Made by a program: the position numbers and the translations under genes
Source: Triatoma infestans
Lineage: Eukaryota > Arthropoda > Insecta > Hemiptera > Reduviidae
NCBI GenBank assembly: GCA_011037195.1
Contig: JAAEAF010003133.1
Location: 37,019-101,018 of the forward strand
DNA length: 64,000 bases
Reading direction: 5' to 3'
Notes under the pieces: generated by a model
The model's input: the letters and a program-made list of their open reading frames with translations, nothing else
Databases searched by the model: none
Told to the model about the DNA's origin: nothing
Part shown: piece by piece, positions 7,093 to 63,165 of the stretch
Layout: each line of letters opens with the position of its first letter
Numbering within the stretch: position 1 is the stretch's first letter

Positions 7093-8004
7093 ACTTTCTC
7101 TTATTCATAGTTGAGTACGAAAAATATGTTTTTTTAGAGAATGGTCCTGTTTGAGTGTATTTGTGTGTGTGTATATGAACAGAATATCTCAAAAAAAAAA
7201 GAAGAAAAGTCGCTGGAAGTTAAAACTTCCATATTCCATTTAGTGGTATTATGAATGCAACAAGCACGAAGATTTCCGGCAAAATCCATTAACCGGAAAT
7301 GCGTCTGTACAGAATGTATTTTTTTTCTTTCAGTTTTTTGGTGATTTTCTAAAAAAAAGGCTCCAATCGATTTTCTTTAAACTTCGAATACTATCCACAC
7401 ACGGATAAATAGCTATCATAGAAATTTTGAACACTTTCCCGGGAAAAATTGATTTTTAGTGGGAGGGGTCTGGGAGAACAGTAACGTTAAGCTTCCCCCC
7501 CCCCCCGAAGTACCACTTTAGATATATGGTTTTTATCACCTATATAATTATTAATACACATTTTACGAGCATTGATAGAATTCCAAAGTTTTGAAGTAAA
7601 TTGGTTAACCGGAAGTGAAACGATTTTTTCGAGTTTTTTGGGGGGGGAATTTTTTTTCGAAAACGGTTACAACGATTTTCTTTAAACTTGGACTGTTTGC
7701 TGCACAGACGGAAACGGTATCACGTTTATTTGAAACATTTTTCTGAAAAATATTGATTTTAGAAATGTATTGGGTAGTCTATCAGTTAGTTTAAAACTTA
7801 AATTTGCCCTAGATTTGTTGGTTTTTGACATAGAGCGCTCCACATAAGGCCCTCTCTCAGGTATACAAGTGAAATTCCCACCACCATTTTTTTTTTGTCA
7901 GCCTAACAGAACATTGTAACGTTACAGTTCTAAAGAAAATTTCTTGATTAAATTGTATTAATTAAAGTATGAGAGAGTCGTGTGTGTGAGTGTTTTACAC
8001 CAGA
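7093..8004 (+). mobile_element. HINE-like element, full length (subfamily 3)
   Basis: The 5' end ACTTTCTCTTATTC follows a T-run. A (TG)n-type tract (about 7155-7176), AACAGAATATCTCAAAAA and the first module (TTAACCGGAAATGCG) follow. A second module begins with TTAACCGGAAGTGAAA near 7605. The 3' end has GTATGAGAGAGTCG, then the hairpin GTGTGA-GTGTT-TTACAC and CAGA before a T-run. The element has no coding capacity and would need a Helentron Rep/helicase supplied elsewhere. Confidence 0.75.
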
Positions 8005-10015: not shown

Positions 10016-10020
10016 AGCAA

Positions 10021-10205
10021 TATGAGAAAGTCGTACGAGTGTACATTCACTCAGAACTTCACTTTCTCTTACTCCTGGTTAGAGGAAGTATTGTAATATT
10101 TGTGTTACGACAAATACGTAAGCTTTCAGTTTACCGAAAATTTGTTCATTATATATAATATAATTGTAATAAAAGGAGTAAGAGAATATTAAGAGAAACT
10201 TTCTC
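10021..10205 (+). mobile_element. HINE-like ends: a 3' terminus abutting a short deleted copy
   Basis: At 10021-10057 a decayed 3' terminus (TATGAGAAAGTCGTACGAGTG and following) is directly followed at about 10060 by a 5' terminus (ACTTTCTCTTACTCC). This copy is only about 145 bp long. It ends at a 3'-type sequence, GTAATAAAAGGAGTAAGAGA (10171-10190). So two element ends lie head to tail, the second copy being a large internal deletion. Confidence 0.6.
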
Positions 10206-10209
10206 AACA

Positions 10210-11030
10210 GATTTTCTTAAATCATGAGGTTACTTCAGGAATTCAGTAGGAATTCATTGATGTTTCATTAAGTTAGAAAATGGCTGGTTTTAAAACAAGA
10301 AAAGTAAAAATAACTTTTCCATTGTAACTTAAGGCTGCGGCCATTGGATTAAAAAAACAAAAAAAACAATGCATGTATGTGTAATTAGCTCATTAAATTC
10401 ATCTAGCACATATGGTCAAACAATTAGTTATAGTGTGAACTACACCTATAATCGACCACTAATCACCTTTCTGGGAGAAATATCACACTCTTATGTTTGT
10501 GTTTTTAAAATACTTTCTAGATCTTGGAAACTTACACAGCAAATAAAACTATAATGGCGCCATTAAATTTATTACATTGCTACCATCTCTGGCCAAACAG
10601 CACATGGTGGGTATTAATTTATTAACTGCAAAGCTGTTCTCGCTTTACATTCCATTAAATACGGCTTTCTCATTTACCCTCCCTCTCACTCTATGTCGGT
10701 GTGGTGGTAGTAGTAGTGTGTGTATGTGTGTGTCTGTATGTCTTTCAACATCTGATCGTATTTTAGAAAATGGTTTATAAATTAGATTTAGTAATTAACA
10801 TTAAATATAAAGTTTTGTTGGTTATAGCTGAAGAATGGATGTATTATGTTTGTAAAAGTTGAATGATTATGATTGAAGTTGACAGAATTGTGTTAAGATT
10901 GAATTATTATCGAATCTATTCAATGATGGAATGATGATATAATTGAACGATCTTAATACTGAATCCTAAAATATTTTTCTTCTCTTAAAGTAACTACCAT
11001 ATTATTATTATTATTTTTAATTTAATTCAA
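10210..11030. other. Unassigned sequence
   Basis: No gene recognised. A GT-rich patch lies near 10695-10740. The short open frames here have no domain features. Confidence 0.45.
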
Positions 11031-15475: not shown

Positions 15476-15488
15476 ATTAGGCTCTTAC

Positions 15489-15523
15489 GTTAGGTTAGGT
15501 TGGGTTGGTTAGGTTAGGTTAGG
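15489..15523 (+). repeat. TTAGG-like short tandem run
   Basis: Several GTTAGG/GGTTGG units in a row (GTTAGGTTAGGTTGGGTTGG and further). TTAGG is the ancestral insect telomere unit. This short interstitial, imperfect run is not a telomere. Confidence 0.6.
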
Positions 15524-18417: not shown

Positions 18418-18684
18418 ATTCCGGTTGATGGATTTAACCCGAAATCTTCGTGTATGAGGATGGTGGAGCGGCTAAACTTAATACCAAGTTTGAGCTTCCT
18501 GTGACTTTTCGTTTTTGAGATATTCTGTTAAGACACACACTCAAATATTCGTATATATAGCCCATTCGCTAAAACTATTTTTTCCGTATTCAAGAGGCCA
18601 TAAAATATGTATTTCCGGTGAAAACTCAATTTCGAAAATTTGATGCGATCGCAATACTTCCTGTTACTAGGGTAATAAGAGAAA
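18418..18684 (-). mobile_element. HINE-like element, 5' end fragment
   Basis: On the plus strand it reads antisense: TTCCGGTTGATGG, TTTTCGTTTTTGAGATATTC, ACACACAC, TTTCCGGTGAAAACTC, GCAATACTTCC and finally TAATAAGAGAAAG, the complement of the 5' terminus. A LINE fragment follows directly. Confidence 0.7.
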
Positions 18685-19215
18685 GGGTTCGTAGGTCACC
18701 TTTATAGGTCCCCGAGTCCTTTTTACGGGTTGCCTAGGATATTGATTCAAGTTTGTACGAAGCAGTGGATAGAAGACCAGCGTCTGCAATGGTGGGAAAG
18801 AACACCAAGGCAGAGGCAGGCTAAATTCTTTATCAAAAGGCATTCACCAGGGATCTACTGATTCATAGCCCGAATGGACATAAGGCTATTAGTGAGTCTA
18901 TTATGAGGGCATTGTAGGCTGAATAGGCATATGCAACTAGTTACTACTTGCAGATAACGCGATATGCCGATTCTGCGAGGCCGAGAAGGAAACCCCGGTA
19001 CACATCTTTTGTGAGTGTGCCGGTCTGATGAAGACAAGGTTTGTACAACTGGGGACAAGCAATCTCGAAGCCACGAGCTTCATGAGGGAGCCACTTTCAG
19101 CTTTGCTAGGCCTGATTTTAACAAGGCGAAGCTGAAAGATGTTCTATAATCTTAGGGGATCCACAGGAGACCTCTTAATGTAGGTCGCAGTCGAATGAGG
19201 CTCGCTCTTCCCTTT
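18685..19215 (+). pseudogene. LINE 3' remnant with Cys-His motif
   Basis: Separate frames read KQWIEDQRLQWWERTPRQRQ near 18760-18820 and CRFCEAEKETPVHIFCECAG near 18970-19025. These are respectively the post-RNase-H tryptophan-rich segment and the C-x2-C ... H-x4-C motif typical of I/R1-group LINE polyproteins. Frameshifts and stops separate them. The block is bounded by GAGAAAG on the left (18678-18684) and GAAGTAAGAGAAAGT at 19232-19246 on the right, both resembling HINE-like ends. The minus-strand frame at 18855-19058 is an antisense shadow. Confidence 0.65.
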
Positions 19216-19249
19216 TAGTAATTTAATCTAGAAGTAAGAGAAAGTAAAA

Positions 19250-21050: not shown

Positions 21051-21180
21051 TTATTTTGTTTGTTTGATTCTTTTTTAACATTTAAATCCCCTAACCTTTG
21101 CTTTGGGTCACGTGTGTAATTTCGAGATTTTTTTGCAATAAGAAATAAAAATAGGGGAGCAACAAATCACTTCAGGCATT

Positions 21181-21321
21181 TTCTATTTGAACTCACGTGT
21201 TACATGACTTAGTATCACCTACATTTCTATTTGAACTCACGTGTTACATGACTTAGTATCACCTACATTTCTATTTGAACTCACGTGTTACATGACTTAG
21301 TATCACCTACATTTCTATTTG
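21181..21321 (+). repeat. Three exact 44-bp tandem units plus a partial fourth
   Basis: Units start at 21181, 21225 and 21269 and are identical. A 9-base partial unit starts at 21313. Each holds one CACGTG palindrome within AACTCACGTGTTACATGAC. There are no spacers between units, so this is a minisatellite, not a CRISPR array. Confidence 0.95.
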
Positions 21322-21639
21322 TACTAGGCGGGGGGCTTTTCACATGTGAATGCTTTAAATAAATCAAATTATAAATATTATCTTAATTTTGGCTACAAGA
21401 AAACCTTGTATAAAACAGGTTTAAAGAAGGTTAAAACAAAATGTGTTTTACTAATAATGTGTCAACATTAATTTACGATCAAATTTCCAATCGAATTCGT
21501 TTTTGAATATAAACCATGGCTTCTGTTCGAACTTTGGGGAGGCATTTTTTTTTTTTTAAATTCGATAGAGCTATTCGAAACTAAGCGTTCATTCGATCAG
21601 AATCCGCCGAATGTAGTTTAGTTTGTCGGTATAACGCGT

Positions 21640-21905
21640 AATCTACAAGTAGTCATTGGGCATGTACCTATTCAGCTTACAATGAATGGCCTGGTAATAG
21701 ACCCAATATTAGCCTTATGTCCGTTCGGCTATGGCTAAGTATGACCCTGGTAAATTTAGGTAAATGTCTTTTGATAAAGAATTTAGCCTGCCCACTATTG
21801 CAGACGCTGGTCTTTTATCCAATCCTTGGTAGATCCTTGAATCAAGATCCTGGCCAATCCGCAAAAGGGCTCAGCGGTCTATATAGGTAAACTTCGAACC
21901 CTTTC
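21640..21905 (-). pseudogene. LINE 3' remnant, same family as 18685-19215
   Basis: The complement aligns with 18685-18940: GATTCAAGGATCTACC, AAGACCAGCGTCTGCAATAG, TTCTTTATCAAAAGACATTT. It stops before the Cys-His motif. At its right border CGAACC meets CTTTCTCTTACTC, the same junction as at 18684 in the other copy. Confidence 0.65.
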
Positions 21906-21909
21906 TCTT

Positions 21910-22635
21910 ACTCGACACAAAATGCCCGTTAAACTTTATTCGCTCGTTTGAATAGTTGTCATTTCTAAATTCACTTCAGCTAGGTGCAGGATATTTTATC
22001 GCTAAGTGCAATGTTTATTCAATAAAATCATTTACTTTTAAGTGAGGTGAAATGTTATTGGTGATGTTGTGTGTTTGTGTGCTGGTAGCTTGTGTAGCAC
22101 GAGCGGTTTAGTAAAAGGGTTTGTAAGTATATATGTTTAAGAGAGAAGTATTAGTAATAAGAAAGAACTCACCTCTGCTAACAATAAATATAATTCTAAT
22201 AAAATGATAACTGCAAGTTATTGCAAAGATATTATAAACTTATTAATATGCACTGATGCTAAGAGAGTGAAAAACAAGTGTTCTGCTTCGGTGTCTACAA
22301 CCAACTATATTGAAGGAATGTCTTCTAATTGTTCGTTCAAATCCTCCCCTGTGAGAAGAAGGGGTAGGACAATGCTATCAAGGTTCATGAACTCTCCCAG
22401 GACTTCTTCTACCAGGACTTCTTCTACCAGGCGTACCCTTTTGAATGTTAGAATATTCTTGAAATAATATTTTTCAAATAAAATATGTGTGTGGCATCCA
22501 ACACAGAGGCATTAGTTCTAAAAATAGACTTAGAGGATACTTTTGCATGAAGTAGAAATTCTAATATAACTTCAGTATTTTTACTTATTTTAAGCATACT
22601 ATAGTTTATTTTCTGTTAGAGAATTATTTCTCGGA
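21910..22635. other. Unassigned; small direct repeat near 22393
   Basis: An 87-residue frame (22204-22467) includes a 15-base direct repeat encoding TSSTR twice, but it shows no domain. A GT-rich micro-frame at 22052-22111 would give a hydrophobic 19-residue peptide ending in a stop. Neither is convincing as a gene. Confidence 0.4.
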
Positions 22636-23337: not shown

Positions 23338-24156
23338 AAATCTTGTGTGAAACACTCACACAACTTTCTCTTACTCCAGTACTCAAAATTATAATTGACA
23401 AATTTTATAGTTAGTGTACCAAATTTAATGAAATTCGTCGAAAAGTGAAAACACTGTCCAGTAACACTGTCCGGTTTACTAATTTCCTTGAAACTCGGAA
23501 TTTTGGCCATCTATTTATTTCTAATTATTTCGTTTGGATGATAGAATTATGTAATCAACTATGATAGCAATTAGAGAAAAACATAACCCCACCCCTCCTC
23601 CCCTTAAATGAATTTTCCCAGAGAAATGTTTTAAATAAAAGTTATAGATCTTTGTATGTTTAGTTTATATATGAAGTAAATCGTCGCAGACATTTTGAGA
23701 AAATCGCGAAAAAGTGATAAAAATCATTTTGTAAAGTGGTAATGTAAACGCACTTCCGGTTATCCGATTTTTTGGAACTCGGAATTTCAACAACATATTC
23801 AATTCTGATTAACATTATTTAGATGATAGAACTGTGTAATAAACTGAAATAGCACTTAAGATGAAAACCTAACCCCACTCCTCCCCCAGAAGTGCCCTTA
23901 AATGAATTTTCCCGGAGAATTGTTTTAAATAAAAGTTGTAGCTGTTAGTATGTGTAGTTGATATACTAAGTTTGAAGAAAATCGTTGGAGCGATTTTTGA
24001 GAAAATTGCAAAAACGTAAAAAAAAACTAGTAAAGTGGTACTTCCGGTTGAGGAATTTTGACAGATGACCCACTGTCAGATCCCATGGTGATAACTAAAC
24101 GGAATATCAAGTTTGAACTTTCTACGATTTTTCGTTTTTGAGCTATGCTGTTTAAA

Positions 24157-24200
<44 letters not shown>
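23338..24200 (-). mobile_element. HINE-like element (subfamily 2), 5'-truncated
   Basis: Starts on the plus strand with the complement of the 3' hairpin (GTGTGAAACACTCACAC) and ACTTTCTCTTACTCC. Two antisense modules with GCACTTCCGGTTATCC (about 23749) and GTACTTCCGGTTGAGG (about 24039) follow. It ends at a (CA)n tract, 24159-24197. The 5' terminal 150 bp beyond the microsatellite are absent. Confidence 0.8.
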
Positions 24201-24202
<2 letters not shown>

Positions 24203-24564: not shown

Positions 24565-25890
24565 GTTTTCTCATAAATTAAAGAAAAAATCTTTAAAAAT
24601 TGAGAACTATTTTGAATCCGATATAACTTTGATTTTCTTATCACCATTATTGTTTTAAAAACTTAAGGCAGTTTTGTATAAATTAATAAATATAGAACGT
24701 ATAGTAACCCAAATTGTTACCCTTCCCGCATTCTACTGCCAGTAGTTTAAAAAAAACGTGATCCAGGCACTACACGCAGTTTGCAACAACAAAAAAAACG
24801 TAATTTTACATAATCTCGCCAACAATGTGTTAATTTTTTTATGGGTCGCTAAAATTGACCTGTTCATAAAGTACTTGTCAATATAACTGTGCTATGACCC
24901 ATCAGACTTCTGGTCGACTCTAAGATCTAGAAATTTGATATGTAATTTAAAATTTAATATTAAGGATATAGAAATAAAAGATTTTTTCCTAATCATGTTA
25001 ATCTTATTACAGATAGACACACACATATTTAGAAACTCACATTCCACGCAGCAACATTTGCTTGCAACATTGTACACCAATGTTTGCCAACATTTAGTGG
25101 GTCGGCAAAAGATGAAAGAGGAGTTATTTTGTTACTACTTTCCACCTACAATGGGAAACATTGCACGGGTTGTATATAGTATTTCTTCATTATTTATCCT
25201 AGCGGCGGCTGTTAGAGGAATTATTGAAATCGTTTCAGTTTTCACCGGAAATATATGATTTGAGATATCTAGATTACGAAAGAAAAAGAAGTTTTTTTTT
25301 GCGAATGTTGTTTCTTTGTGCAAAGTGTATGTGGGAACAAAACTTTCTAGAACAAGAAATGTTCAGAAAGCTCTAAAATTGATAGTTTTCCACTTCCTGA
25401 AACGGATAAATAACAATGATTATGCTTAAATGATATTAACAAATAAAAAGAAAACATGTATTTATTTATAAAGCTAATTACTAGATTGACAAGGTGAGAG
25501 ATAATTGAATAATAAGCCAACGAGATCCAGTCGCTTATCACCCTGTTTTTTTATAGACAGTTGATTAAAACGGAATGACTTTGTTATTAGTATTAGTGCG
25601 TGCGTACGACAGTATGTGCCCTTCATGTATTGAATAAACCAATAATGGGCTTGCTGTCCTGTCCATTTATAGTATAAAACATCAAAGACGTACTTTTAAT
25701 CTTGTCTTTTATGTTATTTATTATTATTATTTTTTTTTCTAACTGTCGCATTTAATACTTGTTCTGTTCTATTGAACAGTTCCCTTGTTGTATCTAATTT
25801 AATATAGTATATTATATTGGTTTGTACAAGATAACTAATTGGATTTACTACTAGCTTAAGACGCTTTAAGACTATTAATTGTGTTACTCT
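24565..25890. other. Unassigned; a short HINE-like piece near 25225-25330
   Basis: At about 25226-25260 the sequence TTCAGTTTTCACCGGAAATA is HINE-like 5' material without a terminus. The 107-residue frame at 24935-25258 runs into this repeat and has no motif. Confidence 0.45.
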
Positions 25891-27215: not shown

Positions 27216-27553
27216 AGTAATATAGGGGCAAGCAATTAATTTTTACACAAACATATCGTATATTCAAATTATGTAAATAAAGTTCTAAGACTTTTAATGT
27301 AGCTGTTAAAGCCCAGTGAAGTCTATATAATCATTACAGAATTGGCACTACCTATAATTACTGTACTGTACATAGATAGCATGATTCACCGTTGAGAAAA
27401 GCAATTGGCCGTAATAACTATGAAAGTTTTATTAACCTTCCATCTAGATAACAGTCTCACCCAACCAGTGGTAACTAAATTGCACTTCTGTGTATTATAT
27501 TTACAGCTGTTTATTCTTGAATTTATTATTATTATTATATACACACATATATT

Positions 27554-28271
27554 ACTTTCTCTTACTCCTAGTAAGAGGAAGTATTGTAATCGTGTCAAAT
27601 TTTCGATATCGAGTTTTCACCGGAAATATCCGTTTTGAGGTCCCCTGAGTCCAAAAAAGGGTTTTTAGCGAATGGTCTGTGTGTGTGTGTGTCTGTGGGT
27701 CTGTGTGTGTGTGTGTGTGTCTGTGTGTGTGTATGTATGTGAACAGCATAGCTCAAAAACGAAAAATCGTAGAAAGTTCAAACTTGATATTACGTTTAGG
27801 TATCACCATGGGATCTGACGGTGCGTTATGTGTCAATATTCCTCAACCGGAAGTACCACTTTACTAGTTTTTTTTTTACGTTTTTGCAATTTTCTCAAAA
27901 ATGGCTCCGAAGATTTTCTTTAAACTTCTATATCAACTACACATACAAAGAGCTACAACTTTTATTTGAAACATTTCTCCAGGAAAATTCATTTAAGGGC
28001 ACTTCTGGGGGAGGGGTGGGGTTATTTTTCTCTAAAGTGCTATCACAGTTGATTATACAATTGTATCATCCAAACAAAATTAATTAGAAATAAATACATG
28101 GCCAAAATTCCGAGTTTCAAGAAAATTAGTAAACCGGAAGTGCGCTTTTACTGAACAATTTTTTCAGTTTTCGACGAATCTTATTAAATTTGGTACACAA
28201 ACTATAAAAGCTGTCAATTATAATTTGGAGAACTGGAGTAAGAGAAAGTTGTGTGAGTGTTTCACACCAGA
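27554..28271 (+). mobile_element. HINE-like element, intact reference copy (subfamily 2, 718 bp)
   Basis: 5' end ACTTTCTCTTACTCC followed by TAGTAAGAG, which folds back on CTCTTAC. Then TTTTCGATATCGAG, TTCACCGGAAATATCCG, a (TG)n tract (about 27679-27732), AACAGCATAGCTCAAAAACG, CAACCGGAAGTACCAC, CAGGAAAATTCATTTAAG, TAAACCGGAAGTGCGC, and near the end GGAGTAAGAGAAAGT. The 3' hairpin GTGTGA-GTGTT-TCACAC and CAGA precede a T-run. It has no significant frame. It is the best template in the window for defining the family. Confidence 0.8.
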
Positions 28272-28279
28272 TTTTTTTT

Positions 28280-29335
28280 TCTTGAAATTAGAAAAGATAA
28301 TGTAAAACATTAACATAAAATTTACTTACAACATTTTATTATTATTCACATAAAGTTTCATGTAACATTTTCAAAGTAATGAAAACTTATGCTCTTCATA
28401 ACAAGAATTGTTATATTAATATCTACTTTTTCTTTCTAATCGTTAAATTTGCATTTTAATAACCTAGCCGCAGGGTAATAATAGAATTGAATATTTATTT
28501 TAATTTCTTTCGAGATTTTAAATAAAATTTTGATTTTTATCTGTCACTGAGTTTATTTGTCTTTTTTTTTGTTTTACAATTTTTTTTTACTTTTTCTTTG
28601 TTTAGTTACTTTCACTTATTCCTAAAGGATCCAATGACATTAGAAGATATGACGCAAAAGTTTCTTGCGATGCTATCTATACGTATATAAATCTATTGTT
28701 TTCATTTGGATATCTTTCCCAGGAAAATGATTTGAGGGGTGGGGTATGGAAGATGCGATATTAGACCTCTTTCTAAGCTGCAATTTTAATGTAATTTACG
28801 GTTCAATACATGGTTGAGTCCACAATACTGGATAACAAACGGGATTTTATTCACCATAGCTTGGGTTAATTTTTTTATGTCTTATTCGAGTTTCGTATCC
28901 TAACCATCGTCAGAGCATTGTTACCAAGTTCGTATAGAGAGTTGACTTCAAGTTTTTATTTTGGTTGCAACCAAAGGTGATTCGTGCAACAATTAACCAG
29001 TGTGCTATTAACTTGATAAAACAATACTCTGATTATAGATGAGAATTTGAAACCGGTCAGAACATACCTACAACAGAAGAAGCATGCTATAGCCTTACAG
29101 GCCTTTATTTATTTTTTAAAACATTTTCTAGAAAAAATACTTTAAGGGCATTCTGGGGGAGATGCAAGTTTAGGATTATCACTCCTAAACATTCTTTGCC
29201 GACTTTCTGACAAAGAAAGCCGCTGCATCCCTCCCCCCGTTCATGTGTCAAGAGAGCAGGACAAAGAATAATCTTGATAGCTATTTTCTTAAAAATATCT
29301 GAGGCGTGTTCTGAGTACAAATTGGCTTCTTATTT
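28280..29335. other. Mostly unassigned AT-rich sequence
   Basis: Isolated HINE-like words (CCCAGGAAAATGATTTGAGG near 28718) suggest old fragments, but no border can be placed. The 71-residue antisense frame at 29105-29320 is not recognisable. Confidence 0.4.
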
Positions 29336-29839: not shown

Positions 29840-30560
29840 AAGGGATATCGAATCACCTTGTGAAAGTGATTAGAAGTTTTTATGACCAAACCACTTTTGT
29901 GGTAGGCAATTATAAGCAAATGACGCCTATTCGGACAAACAAGGGAGTACGGCAAGGTTGCCCTTTGTTACCAATACTCTTTCACCTGTATGTGTAAAGA
30001 GTTTGACTTTATACAAAATTGGCAAGCGAACCTACAACATGACTTCAACTGTAGTGATCAAGTCATAAATACGATGCTATTTGCGGACGACCAAGTATTG
30101 ATTTCGGATAGTGAGGATCGCTTACAAAAAGCCGCGCATCAGCTGCAGACACTCGGTAGAGCATTTAATTTAAGCATTTCCTCCACCAAAACGAAGGAAA
30201 GCTATTACCTTCGTTTTAGTGGAGGAAATGCTTAATGGTGGCACCTATCGCGTTCGATCAAAAATAGTCATAAATAATGGGTGGTCGAGCAAGTAGATAC
30301 ATTTAGCTATCTAGGCTGCAGTGTATCCTACATTAGGGATGTTGCCGACACCCAGGAAAAGCTTCGTCTCTTTCAAGCCATGTGCGGAACTATAAGGCGT
30401 TCCTTAGGTAAAAACGCGACCAAGGAAACTCAGGAAGTTTTATAAAGTAATGGCCCTTCCAAGCATTTTGCATGGATCAGAAACTTGGACCCTTACCAGA
30501 GCTCTTCGGCGAAGGATTGAGAATGCGGAGATGCGAATCCTTAGAATCCTTAGATCGGCA
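29840..30560 (+). pseudogene. Non-LTR retrotransposon reverse transcriptase fragment
   Basis: Reading across frames: VIRSFYDQT, GVRQGCPLLPILFHLYV (29943-29993, finger/palm motif), MLFADDQVLISDSEDRLQ near 30075-30127 (the catalytic F/YADD motif, both aspartates present), FSYLGCSVSY at about 30301-30330, and FYKVMALPSILHGSETWTLT (about 30437-30495). This order is the palm-to-thumb region of a LINE reverse transcriptase. Frameshifts are needed after LYV and around 30185-30290, so it is dead. One frameshift zone coincides with a 28-bp inverted duplication at 30170-30235. Endonuclease and C-terminus are missing here. RTE- or I-like clade; I cannot choose between them. Confidence 0.85.
30170..30235. 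repeat. 28-bp inverted repeat inside the RT fragment
   Basis: Arms at 30170-30197 and 30208-30235 are complementary except for one position (G opposite A), with a 10-base loop (AAAGCTATTA). It destroys the conserved reading after SSTKTK. Confidence 0.95.
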
Positions 30561-30868: not shown

Positions 30869-31336
30869 AAAAATGAAAAATCGCAGGAAGGTGGTTTAGG
30901 TCCTCCCACCTTATCTGACACGAAGGTTTCTAGGCAAAATCCATCAACCGGAAGTGTGGCTAAACTTAATGTTTTTTGTTTCTAGTCTTTTGGCGATTTT
31001 CTCAAAATGGCTCCCAACGATTTTTTTTTAATCTTTGCTATCTACACACATAAATGCCAATCAATTTTTCCCCCCAAAAAAGGATTTTTAGATTGTTGTG
31101 CGGAATTTTAGTGGCGTTAAATTTGTGTGTGGTATTGATTCAGTCCTATTGGCCCGCTTTTCTGGTCTACCTATGCTGCCTGATTTGACAGTTTAATACT
31201 TGTTACCCCAACACCACCTCTTTATTTATGTTTTGCCAAATGAGTGAATTCGAAGTTTAATAAAATTTATGATGTTATATGTATATAATTGTATTAACAG
31301 AAGTAAGAAAAAGTCGTGTGTGTATTTCACAACATT
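30748..31336 (+). mobile_element. HINE-like element, 5' terminus missing (subfamily 1)
   Basis: Begins TCGAGTTTTCACCGGAAATA, then a long (GT)n tract (about 30822-30864), TCAACCGGAAGTGTGG and CAGAAGTAAGAAAAAGTCGTG. The final hairpin is decayed (GTGTGTATTTCACAAC). An antisense piece of the same family lies immediately upstream, about 30600-30730. The 107-residue frame crossing the (GT)n is an artefact. Confidence 0.7.
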
Positions 31337-31339
31337 AAT

Positions 31340-32040
31340 TAAATTTCTTCATTAAATACATTTAACCCCCCAAAAAATATCATTGAAACTAATAATTTTT
31401 AAATTAGAACAGTTTTACTATTACCTGTTTCCACTTTTTATGAGTAATATCTGTATATTAAATTTCAATAGATATATTTCATAATCTAGCTGATTTCAAT
31501 TCTGTTATTACTTTTATCAATGTACACACACCCTTGAACTTTTAAATTTTGTTATAGATTGAAAGGAACTGATAGGAAATTGGTTAAGTAAAAATCGATA
31601 TTAGATTAATAGTAAATTTCATATTGTGATTATCTGTAAATATTTTTGAAAAAATCATTTATTTAATTAAAATAAATCGATGTAGCGATCGATATTCAAT
31701 ATTTTTGCACGTTTCATATCATTGAAGATTAATTTGATAAATTTTGTACACCTGCCGCTTTGTATGAAATTATGATTGATACATATAAGCTACTTTTTTA
31801 TTATTTCGGTACCGTACTTATTCAGCTACACTTTATATCTCTAGTGATCAGGTGTCTTATGCGTAACACACTTAATTTACTAATGTTACTCATAATATTA
31901 CTACTAAAATAAAGTCCAAGGCCAAACGAACCCATTATCACGCAATACACCACAGTTGGGCGATCCACGCCATGTGAATATAGAGTTTCACACGGCGGCT
32001 GCAAAGAAAACTAGTTGGATTATCATTTGTTTACTTTAAA
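31340..32040. other. Unassigned AT-rich sequence
   Basis: Nothing recognisable; the small antisense frame at 31822-32004 has no motif. Confidence 0.45.
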
Positions 32041-33619: not shown

Positions 33620-34520
33620 ACACACCAACATTCTTTCTTTGATTCATACGTCATACAGAATATCAATCTTCAAATTGGTTCTTCTTCTCCAGCTCTGGCC
33701 TTGCTTAACTGGACCGAATATTCCTTCTTAGAAACTCTCATTTCAAATATCATGAAAGTACTTTCTTCATTTTTGAAGACTATCCAAGTCTCATACACAA
33801 TATGTGAACTGGACGAATTAGAATTTAGTATAGCGAGATTTTCGTTTTTACGGAATTTCGTACCAATACTTATTTTAATATTCATCAATGTAGAAACATT
33901 CAAAAAATAAATTGAAAAAATTTCAGACAATCTTTACGTCCTTTAAAAAAAGACAATTATTTCAATGAAGCAATAAAATACAATTAAAACAAGTGAGAAA
34001 TAAATTAATATTCATTTTAGGTTGAAAGTATGCAAGAGGGCGGATATGTAGGTCAAGGTAATGGACAGTGCCGGCATTCATTTTAGATCTTTAGAATGGA
34101 AGAGTTCTGATATTTCTCTAAATTATTATAATAATTTTTTTCTTATTTTTTTATTTTTTTAAGGTGTGGGAAAAATTAAATGCATTTCTCTCATAGCAAC
34201 TCGTTATTTATGGAGCTGTATTGCAATTCGTGCAGAAAGATTACTTTTTTAACTTAATATCTGATTTCACAATACACTAACTATAATTAGTTCTGTAGTT
34301 ACAAATTTTTTTTGACCGTATATAAGATTAATATTACATACATGAGAGAGAAGAGAGAGAGAATGGATTTCCACATCTGGTAAAAATTAATCGAAGCAAA
34401 AAAAAATAATTTGTAGTGGGGATAAAAAAACATCGTTTATTCACACATAATCTAATGAATGAATCATCATTCTGTTGTAAGAAAAAAAGATTGCTATCAA
34501 ATCTTACCGCAGTAATTTAT
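33620..34520. other. Unassigned AT-rich sequence
   Basis: Two overlapping frames on opposite strands near 33578-33930 have no domain and exclude each other. A short (GA)n tract lies near 34346-34362. Confidence 0.45.
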
Positions 34521-35269: not shown

Positions 35270-35893
35270 CGCTTTGATGCTGCAGGAGTACATGTCTCGC
35301 AGGAAGGATGCTTGTGCATTCAAACAACAAATGATCCACCGTCTGCGGCGAGATCTGATCGCAGGAACAAGCAGGGTTTAGAACAATGTATAGTCGATGT
35401 AAATAGGCAGCCATTTTTCTGTGCCCGGAAAGGAGCTGGGTGAAACTGAAGTGAGTACATGGACCATAAGCGGACGGCTTAAAACAGAGGGAAAGAACAC
35501 CCTAGTTAGTTGGCCAGTCAATGAGCTACGCCAGATCTGTTCTCATTTCTTCAAGCTACGCTGACCTATCCATTCTTTTACGGCTGACAGTGGAAACCAG
35601 CAAAAACTGCTGACGAGGTCGCAATCCCCAGAGGCCACCTTTGCCAACTGATCCGCTAATTCATTTCCAGCCGTTCCTGCATAAGCCTTCACCCATGAAA
35701 ATGAGATGAGGCAACGATTTTGGAGTCTAGATAAGCTCCGCCTTATTTTTTCTAATAGAGGAAGGTGGTTGCTGGCGTTTCTTATTGAATCTATGGAAAC
35801 TCGACTATCCGTAGCAATTCTAACATTTTGACCAGAGCCTAAATTTATTGGATTTATACTGTAGTGTAGTTGATGTATGTTTGATTGTACCAT
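35270..35893 (-). pseudogene. LINE RNase H domain and Cys-His tail
   Basis: The 116-residue minus frame holds IATDSRVSIDSIRN, where the D of TDS is a catalytic acid, and FSWVKAYAGTAGNELADQLA, with H replaced by Y in the usual VKAHAG and the final catalytic D kept in NELAD. After a stop near 35543 the tail continues in other frames: KMAAYLHRLYIVLNPACSCD then PQTVDHLLFECTSILPARH, the C-x-C ... H-x4-C motif. This is the end of an I/Jockey-type polyprotein; RT is not present. It reaches a separate repeat at about 35885. Confidence 0.85.
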
Positions 35894-36340
35894 GAGCGGT
35901 TTTTGAAAGGTAGCGTAATTTTAAGAAATATGATGTAAGAATTTAATGAGTTAGAAACTAGCAATTAACCACGATTAAAGTCAACTAATTTAATGACTAG
36001 ATATTTATACATAAAAACGTGCCAAACTAAATAAAACTAGGACAGATAACAGAAGAGAATGGGACCGAGTAGAATATTTCTTGTCTGTATGACTAAGACT
36101 GACAGTATAACTACGTGAATATGACTGCTTCTAACTTTTCATCTTTTGGCCTGCTATTTCTAAATCGCCGCATTTCAAAGGGGGTGAATTACAATAGAGT
36201 TTGGCCAAGTGCTTTGTCTTTCACTACCTGTCCCTTATGCCTCTTTTCCAGCTAACGTACAAATTTCTTGTAACTGATATTTTGAAAATGTGTTTAAAAT
36301 ATCTAACTCTCTTGCTTCTTGCTTTCAATTATAATGATAG
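35885..36340. repeat. Interspersed repeat X, copy 1
   Basis: It resembles 46645-47085 in the same orientation over about 440 bases: TGAGCGG...AAAGGTAG start, CGTGAATATGACTGC, AACTTTTCAT, TTGGCCTGCT, GCATTTCAAAGGGG, GGCCAAGTGCTTTGTCTTTC, and CTCTTGCTTCTTGCTTTC end. Identity unknown. Its left side touches the LINE RNase H fragment. Confidence 0.65.
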
Positions 36341-38336: not shown

Positions 38337-38965
38337 ACTTTCTCTTACTCCTAGGAAGAGAAAGTATTGCAATCTTGCCAAAAATTTCCAAATTCAATTT
38401 TCACCTGAAATACATATTTTGAGATACTCTGTGTATGAAAATAATGTTTTTAGCTAATGGTCTGCATCTGTGTGTGTTTTAACAGAATACCTTAAAAACG
38501 AAAAATTGCAAGAACCACAAACTTGGTATTCCGTTCAGATAACTATCACCGCATCTGTGACACGATGATTTCGGGCAGAATCCATCAACGGGAAAAGCGA
38601 CTTTACTAAGTGCGACTGTTTTTTGTTTTTTTTTTCACTTTTTCGCGATTTTCTCGAAAACGATTGTATGGATTTTCTTTAAACTGTACATAAATACCAA
38701 TCACTGTTACTTGCAACATTTTTCCGGAAAAAATGGATTTTTGGGGAGATTCTGGGGGGGGGGTGCAGTAGCTTTAAGGTTTTCGAATAGATTTTTGAGT
38801 TTTTGTTTTGGAATTTTCTTGAAAACCTCTATAGTGATTTCCTTTAAACTTGCAATACTGCACAGATATAAATCTAATCACTTTTATTTGTACATTTTTC
38901 CGAAAAAATGTTGTTTTTTTTTTTGGTTAGTTATGCGAAATTTGTGGCGTTAAATTTTGAAACAG
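38337..38965 (+). mobile_element. HINE-like element, 3'-truncated
   Basis: Begins ACTTTCTCTTACTCCTAGG after a T-run, then GTATTGCAATCTTGCC, TTCACCTGAAATACAT, TGTGTGTGTTTTAACAG, ATCCATCAACGGGAAAAGCG, CGGAAAAAATGGATTTTTGG and a second module. It ends near TTTGTGGCGTTAAATTTTG without the 3' hairpin. Confidence 0.75.
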
Positions 38966-44094: not shown

Positions 44095-44740
44095 GGTATC
44101 GAGAAAATTAAAACAAAGCAATAGTCAAAACGTTATTCTGTAAAGTCGCACTTCCGCTTAACCAATTTTTTTCAAATTTGTAATTCTATCAATGCTTCTA
44201 ATTTATATAACTACTGGCCTGAAATTTATCTGCATTACATATTTTCAGGTAATTGCTTTAATATTATATAGGTGACAGAATCATAAATTGTACTAAAATG
44301 ATACTAAAGAGGAAAGTTTAACGCTACTTGTTGCTATGAATCCACCAAAATTCAATTTTCCCCGGTAAATTTCAAATAAAAATGATTGATAATTAGGTCT
44401 GTAGGGAGTATACGAAGTGATAATCGTTGGAGCTGTTTACGAGAAAAATCATGAAAAACTGAAAATTTAAAAAAAAAATGTTCAGTTGCACTTCCGGTTA
44501 ATAGATGTTGCCCCCCAAACCTCCTGACCCTGTCAGATACTGTAGTAGTGAGGAATAATCAAATTTGAGTTTCCTACTATTGTTCGTTTTTGAGATATTT
44601 TGTTCACACATAACAGGTAGACCATTCGCTCAAAAAAAATTTTTTTTTTCGTATTTCGGGGACCCCAAAACATGTATTTCCCGGTAAAAACTCAATTTCA
44701 AAAATCTGGCATGATTGCAATATTTCCTTTTACTAGGAAT
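44095..44740 (-). mobile_element. HINE-like element (subfamily 1)
   Basis: Antisense order: GTCGCACTTCCGCTTAACC, TGCACTTCCGGTTAATAG, TTCGTTTTTGAGATATTTTG, ATTTCCCGGTAAAAACTC, GATTGCAATATTTCC, then TACTAGGAATAAGAGACGGT, the complement of the 5' terminus. The 3' end is missing. Confidence 0.7.
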
Positions 44741-44744
44741 AAGA

Positions 44745-45600
44745 GACGGTAAAATGTCAAAGATTCAGTTTCCGATTACAACAATCCGTTAACTTCGGAT
44801 TCTATAACACAGACCATCGTATAATATTAGTATTTAATAAATAATTAATTAATATGGGATTATGTATTTCTTATGTCTATGCGCAATAAATTATATTCTT
44901 AATTCTTTTTTAGTATGAACGCTGAATAACATTTTGAGATTTCAAAGTAAAATGATTCCTGTGCGAAGGCCTTCTATATCCGTTTGGAATTATATTCTGA
45001 TCTAATTATAATAGCACTAGAATTTAAAACAACCGGATATTTATTAAATGAGTCACCTATGTTTTTATTTTGAGAATTTCCTTTCATAAATTATCTGTCA
45101 AAAACACTTCAACTTGTTTTTAATAAGCTTAAAATTTTCTTTAAAAATAGGCATATTAGAAATGACTGATTGATTACCTTCTAAAATTATTCCAATTTCT
45201 GGGTTCTAATTAAAAAAATTCTTAATATATTATAGATAAGAGAAAAACTGAACGAAAGTATTCGTCAGTAAATCACCTGACAATGTCTGAACACTAAATG
45301 ACTTGTACTGGATGTTACGAGATTGAATATAGACGAACGACAAAAAAAGTTGTAGGTCTAGTACAACTTTGAAGTGCAGAAGTCAAGGCCATATACTAGA
45401 GGATATATAGTATATAATATATGGCACATATTGCGCGCGCATAGTTGATGATGTATTTTAAGGAAGCGACTTGTACCATGTAAGAACCACAAGGTCATTT
45501 CAGTCAGTTCTGTCAGTCACACACAATATTGAAGTCTGAACTTTCACTATTAAGTACATTCATATGTTTCCTTATTATATGGGTACAATATATATATGAT
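44745..45600. other. Unassigned AT-rich sequence
   Basis: Nothing recognised. A TA-rich patch lies near 45400-45422. Confidence 0.4.
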
Positions 45601-45608
45601 TTTTTTTA

Positions 45609-46102
45609 CTTTCTCTTACTCTTTGTTAGAGAAAGTATTGGGTCCGTGACGAAATTTTCAAAATTTAGTTCACCGGAAATCATATTTTTAAAGTACGAAA
45701 TAAACGTTTTTAGCGATTGATCTTTATCCTCTTTCCATCCCACCCTCTCTGTGAGTGTTCTTTTACTTTCTCTAACTGCGCCCGCGCCTGATTTTCGAAA
45801 TTGAGTTTTTACCGGAAATTTCAACATTTAAAAAAAAATATTTTGAATAGTTACACGCGGAATTTGTGGGGTTAATTTCAAATTTTATATGTAGTTGGTT
45901 CAGTGTTTTTAGAGCGCTCTACTGGGCCATAATATAAACATCACTTCTTTGTCAAGATTAGTAGGTTGGTACTTATCCTCCACTACCTCTATATGTATGT
46001 TAAGACAAATATGTAAAATTTGAGTTTAACGTAAATTTATCATTTTATATATAATTTTGTATTAAAAGGAATAAGAGAAAGTCGGTGAGTGTTTCACACC
46101 GA
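45609..46102 (+). mobile_element. HINE-like element with two successive 5' ends
   Basis: The first 5' terminus ACTTTCTCTTACTC is at 45609, and a second, ACTTTCTCTAACTGC, is at about 45765. Each is followed by 5' material (CACCGGAAAT at about 45674, TTTTTACCGGAAATTTC at about 45807). One 3' end follows: GAATAAGAGAAAGTCGGTGAG with TCACACCGA before a T-run. Confidence 0.7.
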
Positions 46103-54560: not shown

Positions 54561-54897
54561 TCAGTTTAAACTTACAAAAAAGAATTTGCCCGAATTAACT
54601 CGGGCAATATTTTTCTGAATATAATGTGAATATTTGTCCTATTTATTATTTTGATTTTTATAACTTGCACTAATTACTGTTTTATTTCATTTAGTCGTGG
54701 TGGTAACTTCAACAAGAAATTGTACTTATATTATGTGCATTTTTTTTGGTTTCTAACTTTTCGATGTTTTTTTTTCCTTTTTAGTTTAGTTGTAATCCTT
54801 TCGGCATTTTATCATCAGTTATAGTAGATACTATGAGGTTTAAGCACGCTATACTATATTTAGCGTTATTAAAAAAGGTTATAATAATATAGGCACG

Positions 54898-55092
54898 ATG
54901 GATTTGGATAGCGATTACGAAGAAGAAATAGACTGTATTAGTGAATCTGACAGCGTAAGTCGTAATAGTTCTAGTTTGGAAAGTGAAGATGATGCTCCAT
55001 TATTACGAGAACAACTTTGGTGTGAAATAAATACTATAGTTGTGGCAAATCAATCGGATAGTAGATTTCTTTTTCAAGTGATTTTTGGGTAG
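54898..55092 (+). pseudogene. piggyBac-like transposase N-terminus, possible
   Basis: The frame starts MDLDSDYEEEIDCISESDSV, a strongly acidic Ser-rich start, then reads LWCEINTIVVANQSDSRFLF and stops. The acidic leader followed by a W-C-x-I ... RF-x-F block resembles the N-terminal part of PGBD4-type piggyBac transposases. The catalytic domain is absent downstream. No TTAA-flanked inverted ends were identified. It could also be a first exon of an unknown gene. Confidence 0.4.
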
Positions 55093-56279: not shown

Positions 56280-57060
56280 TTCAAACTTTGAACCAGACCG
56301 GAAATAAATGTTACGGCGTTCCCTGAATACGAAAAAAATGTTTTTAACGAATGGTGCGTGTGTGTGTTTTCTGGCCAAATATCTCACAAATGAAGACACA
56401 CAGAAAACACAACACATGGTATTCCATTTAGGACGTGGTGGTCCACGTCAGAGCACGAAGGTTTCGGGCAAAATCTAACAACTTTACAGAAAAGTTATTT
56501 TAGATTTTCGTGATTTTATTTAAACTGCATATGCTATTGCTAAACAGATAAGTACATCACTTTTATTTGAAACATTTTTCCGGGAAAATTGCTTTTTTTA
56601 GGGGGTTCTGGGGGGAAAAATAGCATATGCATTCCTCTAAAATGCTATATGGTTTTACTATCTATATACTATTAATTGATACAATCTATATAAAAAGTAT
56701 TCATAGAATTCCAAAGTTAAAACAGATCGTTTAACCGGAAGTGCGATTTTACAGAACAGGTTTTTTGTTGTTTGGGGGGGGGGGATTTTCTCTAAAACGA
56801 TTACAACGATTTTCTAAACTGCAATGTTATCTGCATAAATAGAAACGTATGACGTTTATTTAAAACATTTCTTAAAAAAATTGATTTCAATGGAGTATTG
56901 GGGGGGGGGAGTATATTAGTGAACTTAAATTTATATAATTTTTCTTGATTTCGACATCCATCATCACTTTAATGGCCAGCCCAACTAAACATTGTAACGT
57001 TGCAATTTTAAAGTAAATTTCTTGATTAAATTTTATTAATTAGAGTAAGAGAAATTCGTA
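56280..57060 (+). mobile_element. HINE-like element (subfamily 3)
   Basis: Contains ACCGGAAATAAATG, GTGTGTGTGTTTTC, ACGAAGGTTTCGGGCAAAAT, TTAACCGGAAGTGCG (about 56732), G-runs at about 56774-56784 and 56900-56910, and GAGTAAGAGAAATTCG as the 3' inverted repeat. It shares a 3' half with 7093-8004. The terminal hairpin is lost, and only about 20 bp separate it from the next copy. Confidence 0.7.
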
Positions 57061-57080
57061 TTAGTTTTCTTTTTTTTTTT

Positions 57081-58275
57081 ACTTTCTCTTACTCCTCCTA
57101 GTAAGAGGAACTATTGTAATCGTGTCAAATTTTCGATATCGAGTTTTCACTGGAAATATCCGTTTTGAGCTCCTCTGAGTCCAAAAAAGTGGTTTTTAGC
57201 AAATGGTCTGTTTGTGTGTATGTGTGTGGGTATGTGTGTGTGTGTGTGTGTGTGTGGTGTATGTATGTGAACAGCATAACTCAAAAACGATGAACCGTAG
57301 AAAGTTGAAACTTCATATTCTGTTTATGTATCACCATGCCAACCGGAAGTACCACTTTACTTGTTGTGGTGGTGGTTGGTTCGCAGAGCTGGAAAGCATC
57401 AGAGACATTTTCCGTGGTAGCCTGCATCATTCTGTGGTCATCGACCGGTTTCGGGCGTTCGCCCATCTTCAGGATGCGTTTTTCAGACAGTGTGACAATA
57501 CAGACTTGCACAAAGCAAGTTCAGTTTTTCACACTGACTGGTGTTTTTAACTGTATTTAAATACATAAATAATTAATTTTCTCAAAACTGGCTCTGACGA
57601 TTTTCTTCAAACTTGGTATATTAACACACATACAAAGAGCAACAACTTTTATTTGAAATGTTTCTCTGAGAAAATTCATTTAAGGGCAGTTATGGAGGAG
57701 GGGTTGTGTTTAAAAGATATTTCAGTCGTGAGACGTGGACACTGTTCAGTTATAAACAGCATTCTAGTCAGTAAAAAAGGGTCAATTAGAATTGAATATG
57801 TTGCTGAAATTACGAGTTTCAAAAAAATCTGTTAACCGGAAGTGCGTTTACTTTACTAAATGATTTTTTTTTTTCACTTTTCGCGATTTTCTCAAAAAAT
57901 GACTCCAACGATTTTCTTGAAACTTCCTATATAAATTAAACATACAAAGATCTACAACTTTTATCTAAAACATTTCTCTGGGAAAATTCATTTAATGACA
58001 CTTTTGGAGGAGGGGTGGGGTTATGTTTTTCTCTAAAGTGCTATCATATTTGATTATACAATTATTCTACTATCCACAAAAAATTAATTAGAAATAAATA
58101 GTTGGCCAAAATTCCGAGTTTCAAGAAAATTAGTAAACCGGAAATGCGCTTTTACTGGACAGTTTTTTCAGTTTTAGACGAATTTCATTAAATTTGGTAC
58201 ACAAACTATAAAATTTGTCAATTATAATTTTCAGAACTGGAGTAAGAGAAAGTTGTGTGAGTGTTTCACACCAGA
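57081..58275 (+). mobile_element. HINE-like element (subfamily 2) with an insertion
   Basis: Both termini are intact: ACTTTCTCTTACTCC at 57081, and at the end GGAGTAAGAGAAAGT plus hairpin GTGTGA-GTGTT-TCACAC and CAGA, between T-runs. It has TTTTCGATATCGAG, a (TG)n tract (about 57214-57255), CAACCGGAAGTACCAC, TTAACCGGAAGTGCG and GTAAACCGGAAATGCG. At 57362-57560 it carries a foreign repeat. Open frames across the (TG)n are artefacts. Confidence 0.8.
57362..57560 (-). repeat. Hammerhead-like repeat type 1 inserted in a HINE-like element
   Basis: The minus strand matches 54395-54560 and extends it to a GAACCAACCACCACCACAAC tail. The motif at 57439-57476 is identical in layout: CATC, CTGAAGA, T, GGGC-GAAC-GCCC, GAA, ACCGGT, C, GATG. 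Host sequence on the left stops at CCACTTTACT and resumes near AATTTTCTCAAAACTGG. Confidence 0.6.
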
Positions 58276-62264: not shown

Positions 62265-63005
62265 AATCTGGTGAGAACATACGACTTTCTTTTAATCTCA
62301 AATTAATGCAATTTAATCAAGAAATTTTCTTTCAAATTCCAACTTTACAATGTTTAATTTGGCGGCCATAAAAGTGGTGATGGGGATTTTACTTGTATAT
62401 TTGAGCGGCCATAATGTGGAGCGCTCTAAGTGGAAACCAAGAAAGCTTGTTCATATTTAAATTTAAACTTACTGACAAGACCTCCAATATCCGTCTAAAA
62501 TTAATTTTTTCAGATAAAAGTGATACGTTTTAGTAGTCTGCTTAATATGCTTAATAAGCATTTCAAGTTAAAAGAAACTCGTCCTAACCTTTTACGAGGA
62601 AATTCCAAAAACCTATACTGTAAAATCGCACTTTCGGTTAACTAATTTTCTTCAAATTTGAAATTCTACCAACAATACTTTAGAGGAATGCGTAATGCTA
62701 TTCTCCCCCCCCCCCCCAGAATCCTCAAATCAATTTTCCCGGGAAAATGTTACCAATAAAAGTGATAAATATTTATGTATTTAGATAGTATGTACGAAGT
62801 TTAAAGAAAATCGTTGGAGCCATTTTCGAGAAAAATCTCGAAAAACTGAAAAGTAAAAAAAAAAAACATTCCGGCAGAAAATCGCATTTCCGGTTGATAA
62901 CGTTTGCCCGAAATCATAGTGGTTGATGCAGTGTGGTAGTGGTGCCTAAACGGAAATACCAAGTTTGAGCTTCTGCGAATTTTTTGTTTTTAATATATTC
63001 TGTTA

Positions 63006-63065
<60 letters not shown>

Positions 63066-63165
63066 CATTCACTGAAAATAATGTTGTTCATATTCAGCGG
63101 ACCCCAAAATATGTATTTTCGGTGAAAACTCAATTTAGAAAAACGTCAAGGAGGGGAAAATAGAA
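62265..63165 (-). mobile_element. HINE-like element (subfamily 3), 5' terminus lost
   Basis: It starts on the plus strand with the decayed hairpin complement (CTGGTGAGAACATACGACTT), then AATTAATGCAATTTAATCAAG, ATCGCACTTTCGGTTAAC, a C-run at 62705-62717, CGCATTTCCGGTTGATAACG, and a 54-bp (CA)n tract at 63008-63061. It ends TGTATTTTCGGTGAAAACTC. A lone 5'-type terminus in plus orientation follows at about 63273-63289. Confidence 0.75.

Follow-up and report, generated by a model that had tools for sequence, protein, structure and literature searches.

The elements closest in plan to the repeat family described here are those of the HINE / DINE-1 group, known from Drosophila (DINE-1) and from a mite (HINE-Mo), which are described as having subTIRs of 12-15 bp, a 3' palindrome, a microsatellite and no coding sequence, and as lying at T-rich sites (PMC4067079). 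DINE-1 in addition carries an inverted repeat (IR) near its 5' subTIR, whereas in the mite element the subTIR itself is palindromic (PMC4067079). In Crassostrea gigas, Cg_HINE elements are outlined as a left module of subTIR, complementary IR and microsatellite, a centre of tandem repeats, and a right module of subTIR and palindrome, with oligo-T targets (PMC7492417). Helitron2 elements are described by asymmetric inverted repeats, hairpins at both ends and insertion between TTTT and T or C (PMC5148889), and one such family, Helitron2-N1, is given as about 1.5% of the Rhodnius genome (PMC7073582). A satellite of Triatoma infestans is reported to contain stretches resembling R. prolixus Helitrons (PMC5983683). 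The Helitron Hel-2 of Lepidoptera combines a 5' IR, subterminal inverted repeats, a microsatellite and a 3' hairpin, with 5'-TC and 3'-CTRR ends placed between A and T (PMC4344730). In a search for Helentron work in Hemiptera, the word Helentron was absent from the 20 literature matches listed of 3,533.

We describe here a repeat family in the window, by which we mean the whole stretch of 64,000 nucleotides of Triatoma infestans DNA that was analysed. It looks like a well-formed further example of the published HINE plan (PMC4067079; PMC7492417). With HINE / DINE-1 it shares subTIRs, 3' palindrome, microsatellite, T-rich sites and non-coding character, and with DINE-1 the 5' IR beside the subTIR; it differs in that the 3' subTIR lies 20-26 nt from the end in the five copies measured, as compared to about 38-60 bp in HINE-Mo, and in that the 5' subTIR stands at the terminus instead of two to four nt inside (PMC4067079), the comparison being one of descriptions and not of repeat-library letters. 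It follows the same module order as Cg_HINE, including the central repeats and the oligo-T targets, but the repeats here are few, about 0.3 kb long and strongly diverged, while those of Cg_HINE form satellite-like arrays with units mostly of 140-180 bp, and the microsatellite is TG rather than mostly four-nucleotide (PMC7492417). Like Hel-2, it has the 5' IR, the subterminal inverted repeats, the microsatellite and the 3' hairpin; the ends and insertion site of Hel-2 were not seen here (PMC4344730). Helitron2-N1 of Rhodnius is an abundant Helitron2 family of triatomine bugs (PMC7073582), and the family described here may be that one; it may also be listed in Repbase already.

Copies of the family in the window

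The reference copy (copy C), its parts and the other main copies and pieces are as follows.

27554..28271, plus strand: copy C, 718 bp, without recognisable coding sequence
27554..27568, plus strand: 5' subTIR of copy C, 15 bp, at the terminus, ACTTTCTCTTACTCC
27570..27583, plus strand: 5' IR of copy C, pairing with 27553-27566 (one flanking T included) in a 14-bp hairpin with a 3-nt loop
27678..27741, plus strand: (TG)n microsatellite of copy C, at the family's fixed internal place
27835..28193, plus strand: central region of copy C with diverged direct repeats (27835-27904 against 28122-28193, 65% alike, offset 287)
28235..28249, plus strand: 3' subTIR of copy C, exact inverse of the 5' subTIR
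28251..28267, plus strand: 3' hairpin of copy C, GTGTGA-GTGTT-TCACAC, 6-bp stem
28268..28280, plus strand: terminal CAGA of copy C (28268-28271), then a T-run (28272-28280)
57081..58275, plus strand: copy E, 1195 bp, exact subTIRs, 97% identity with copy C over the final 60 bp
23341..24202, minus strand: copy H, without a head, 95% identity with copy C over the final 60 bp, carrying the central repeat twice
7093..8004, plus strand: copy A, more diverged, 5 of 15 bases differing between its subTIRs
45608..46102, plus strand: copy D, 495 bp, 2 mismatches between its subTIRs, flanked by poly-T at either end; no central repeat found
10061..10211, plus strand: copy B, minimal, 151 bp, subTIRs with 2 mismatches, no T before the 5' end
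38337..38957, plus strand: 5' head, with an exact 5' subTIR, and body of a further copy
44120..44746, minus strand: 5' head and body of another copy
62277..63142, minus strand: one or more further copies, represented by body, microsatellite and 3' part

The initial annotation had named three intact copies as defining the family. Exact subTIRs bear this out at 27554-28271 and 57081-58275, whereas "intact" is generous for 7093-8004, because its subTIRs mismatch at a third of their bases (5/15).

Allowing for 3 mismatches or fewer, the 5' terminus, ACTTTCTCTTACTCC, has 38 matches in the window, as compared to a mean of 2.42 and a maximum of 7 in 100 shuffles; the 38 include 3' subTIRs on the opposite strand, and not all of them are element starts. 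The shared 5' terminus proposed from the first reading thus holds. Five seed copies and their matches (E 1e-4) cover 12,757 of the 64,000 bases (19.9%) in 42 intervals once short gaps are bridged, a coverage that includes the seeds themselves (about 4,200 bases), and with the low-complexity filter on, the same search gave 0 in the reversed window and 0 in three dinucleotide shuffles. The earlier estimate of about thirty copies or pieces was a fair one. The base composition has a G+C of about 33%, which is in keeping with a triatomine host, as are the LINE remains described below.

Over hundreds of bases, copy C is 87-90% identical to copy E and 84-86% identical to copy H, with other pieces of the family falling to about 59%, so that the family looks old and mixed; this divergence between copies suggests that it is inactive or nearly so. 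By the published rule of at least 80% identity over the last 60 bp, 4 of 17 3' ends, the reference included, form one subfamily, one of them at exactly 0.80; some of the 17 had been trimmed by eye slightly short of or beyond the true end, and their identity figure is lower for it.

Ends, hairpins and internal repeats

Over their 15 bases the two subTIRs agree throughout in copies C and E, with 2 mismatches in B and D and 5 in A. The 3' subTIR stops short of the element end by 22 nt in copies B, C and E, by 20 nt in D and by 26 nt in A. The inverse of the 5' terminus was therefore correctly placed just inside the 3' end, exact and 22 nt inside in C and E. We aligned 19 3' ends, some of them lengthened by a few bases, after dropping three (two were 5' subTIRs on the other strand and one, 57031-57060, was degenerate). 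Conservation in this alignment continues for about 22 nt past the subTIR, through the palindrome and up to CAGA-T, which makes the asymmetric inverted-repeat layout a real one.

Behind the 5' subTIR, the IR of copy C forms a hairpin (27553-27583, 14 bp, -9.1 kcal/mol) that no shuffled sequence equalled (z -5.50; 0/200 shuffles as good); its counterpart in copy E is weaker (z -2.34; 5/200). This IR and the diverged central repeats are features absent from the initial annotation.

The 6-bp stem of the 3' hairpin is found in copies C, E, H and others; for the best two, C and E, it is also the centroid fold. Its folding energy in these two is ordinary (z -1.18, with 26/200 shuffles as good, and z -0.46, with 60/200). 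Covariation in the stem was not above chance, with 2 pairs changed on both sides (reached by 179/500 shuffles), 79.1% of cells paired (134/500) and a covariation score of 0.090 (106/500); the stem does outscore six slid versions of itself. In copy B, different letters occupy the place of the hairpin and form a weak palindrome (z 0.02). Of the terminal GTGTGA-GTGTT-TCACAC followed by CAGA, the sequence as first read stands, directly legible and conserved, while covariation and energy lend its folding no support; since the stem does not covary beyond shuffles and its energy in C and E is ordinary, the pairing is plausible rather than proven.

Six period-2 TG/AC arrays occur in the window, one of them within copy C, about 120 bases in. 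Of the flanks of the other five, 9/10 map beside the array of copy C, and the tenth belongs to a copy without a head; 0/4 flanks of two AT/TA arrays map to copy C. The simple repeat therefore does sit at a fixed internal place, as had been suggested. Central direct repeats at an offset near 0.3 kb were seen in four of the five copies tested (identity 67% for copy A, 65% for C, 69% for E and 75% for H), being clearer in E and H than in C, and none was found in copy D.

Insertion sites

For the flanks we used 13 5' ends and 15 3' ends chosen by eye, with the partial heads at 25211 and 48069 excluded and a further 5' end at 19245 noticed later. T makes up 77/130 bases before the 5' ends, where one third is expected, and 0/20,000 random draws reach this count; TT stands directly before 10 of the 13 (background 12.7%), the exceptions being 10061, 18686 and 22625. 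After the 3' ends T accounts for 113/150 bases and TT follows 11 of the 15, a count biased upward because the 3' boundaries were placed before the T-run, so that the 5' count is the fairer one. On this count, the T-run flanks noted from the letters are a real property of the family.

Identical flanks, where present, consist of T only and measure 0 bases at copy B, 2 (TT) at C, 5 at A, 8 at D and 11 at E. Since the flanks of A, D and E share 5, 8 and 11 T, a poly-T duplication is possible there, and these flanks may be compatible with one. Comparing the joined flanks of 13 candidate end pairs within the window revealed no empty site; for F, G, I, J, K, M and N the pairing was a guess that probably mixes the ends of different copies, and H is headless. 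Four spanning matches, of which copy E accounts for three and pair J for one, were inspected and are not empty sites, because they are one-sided or align through the T-run or the shared subTIR. The remaining spanning matches are the pair's own ends, or weak.

Head-to-tail junctions and neighbouring repeats

At two places a copy begins shortly behind the 3' end of an older copy on the same strand.

57031-57081: junction in front of copy E, T-rich; copy E sits directly behind the older, degenerate 3' end
10016-10061: junction in front of copy B, not T-rich

Of 14 5' ends, two thus follow one of 20 3' ends on the same strand at a distance of 25 bp or less, where 0.06 are expected, and 40 of 20,000 random placements reach two such junctions. 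The family might seed its own arrays, the T-run behind a 3' end serving as preferred landing site for head-to-tail growth; we consider this rather unlikely, since the case consists of very few events, with ends chosen by eye, one of the two 3' ends degenerate and a single T-rich junction.

Other repeats lie among these copies. One is present at 18676-18970 (minus) and 21626-21910 (plus), 72% alike and both ending in CTTTCTCTTA, which at 18686 runs directly into a HINE head without a T flank and at 21910 does not; the join at 18686 could have formed at a chance homology. On the opposite strand, 18676-18970 shows by eye a motif like the zinc-binding motif of LINEs. The further 5' end at 19245 (minus) has a T-run and ACTTTCTCTTACTTC, and its short head is followed by sequence that looks LINE-like by eye. 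A tandem repeat at 21180-21325 has a 44-base unit in 3.3 copies and looks younger than the repeats around it because its matches reach 99%. Two repeat pairs of 81-82% identity lie outside the family intervals (5986-6440/34525-34971 and 32744-33180/39211-39649). At 15485-15523, an internal place, there are about eight copies of TTAGG, which we take to be the insect telomere unit.

Coding content of the window

A Pfam comparison of 58 of the 107 open frames of at least 70 aa revealed neither a Rep or PIF1 domain nor one of a transposase. A single match was helicase-related, OB_YrrC (a helicase OB-fold) at 33673-33933, and it is at chance level (E 0.06; 13.7 bits, where the cut-off is 27). The sole match above a curated cut-off in these 58 frames is an RNase H at 35543-35920 (minus), and a piece of reverse transcriptase at 29924-30232 (plus) falls just below its own cut-off (E 4.5e-6); this piece and weaker reverse-transcriptase and zinc-binding matches fit LINE remains. 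An open frame at 54844-55089, with no Pfam match, contains MDLDSDYEEEIDCISESDS, which resembles the acidic start of piggyBac-type transposases. The Rfam search gave nothing at the gathering threshold, and no tRNA was found. As expected for an insect repeat, the 3' end of the family had no match in bacterial, archaeal or viral contigs, and copy C had none in phage records, in searches from which records close to the window's own genome may have been excluded.

Discussion

A HINE is expected to have subTIRs of about 11-15 bp, the 5' one at or close to the terminus and the 3' one set inward, an IR complementary to the 5' subTIR or a palindromic subTIR, a T-rich target with TT or more on either side, and a microsatellite, central repeats or both. 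The family has these subTIRs, the 5' IR, the T-rich target and the microsatellite with central repeats. Since its ends, inverted repeats, 5' hairpin, microsatellite, central repeats and T-rich sites match the HINE branch in structure, we classify it with high confidence as a non-autonomous Helitron-like family of the Helentron/Helitron2 branch, HINE / DINE-1-like, a name that covers Helentron and Helitron2 together because the copies carry no recognisable protein by which to separate them. The initial annotation had preferred a rolling-circle class to a classical MITE, and this is supported, with every HINE feature on which the window gives a clear answer present. The canonical Helitron pattern (5'-TC, 3'-CTRR, insertion between A and T) was not found; the ends are ACTTTCTC and CACCAGA-T, at T-rich sites.

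An autonomous relative at another place in the genome would supply the Rep/Helicase that moved the copies in trans. This enzyme would nick at the element ends, and one strand would then be copied from the 5' end by rolling-circle replication, with the 3' palindrome as a putative stop signal; the product would be joined into T-rich DNA without a target-site duplication.

A narrower reading places the family in Helitron2 proper, whose Rep/Helicase has no endonuclease domain, and not among Helentrons. We regard this as possible, though somewhat doubtful; it is a sub-case of the classification given above, and the confidences in the two do not sum to one. Helitron2, too, is described with asymmetric inverted repeats and a hairpin at each end (PMC5148889), and the abundant family of Rhodnius is annotated as Helitron2-N1 (PMC7073582). 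Nothing in non-coding copies separates Helitron2 from Helentron, however, and it is for HINEs that an IR, a microsatellite and central repeats have been described in combination (PMC7492417).

Far less probable is a family of MITEs mobilised by a DDE transposase, in which the T-runs would be target-site duplications and the 3' hairpin incidental. Families of a similar kind were initially reported as MITEs (PMC4067079), the inverted repeats of copies C and E are exact over 15 bp, T-runs flank A, D and E on both sides, and covariation gives the 3' hairpin no support. Classical MITEs have terminal inverted repeats, however, and here the 3' repeat is not terminal, lying 20-26 nt inside in the five copies measured with about 22 conserved nt beyond it; moreover, copy B has no identical flank and copy C only TT, and no transposase domain was found in the 58 of 107 frames compared. 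We give practically no credence to the idea that unrelated T-rich and TG-rich low-complexity sequence mimics one mobile family, for although many copies contain poly-T and TG tracts, the filtered controls (reversed window and three dinucleotide shuffles) gave 0 matches and copy C agrees with E (87-90%) and H (84-86%) over hundreds of bases.

The 15-base terminus had one match in the literature searched, the forward primer of microsatellite locus Pm066 of Panstrongylus megistus (PMC8140489). In reverse complement this primer agrees at 21/23 bases with 4 of the 19 3' ends (C, E, H and 31288-31340) and at 20/23 bases with a fifth, the match spanning the subTIR into the hairpin. With 3 mismatches or fewer allowed, none of 100 shuffles gave a match. 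A further six pieces of the element (14-16 bases, one strand each) had no match in this literature, and the single match of the terminus therefore looks unlike background. The likeness consists of the 23-base primer only, and the authors report a GTG repeat, not TG (PMC8140489).

As a family, these elements are one more clean case of the HINE type and open no new question of mechanism. In a triatomine host, the primer match would tie a published microsatellite marker of P. megistus to a mobile repeat, in which case the primer might have numerous annealing sites.
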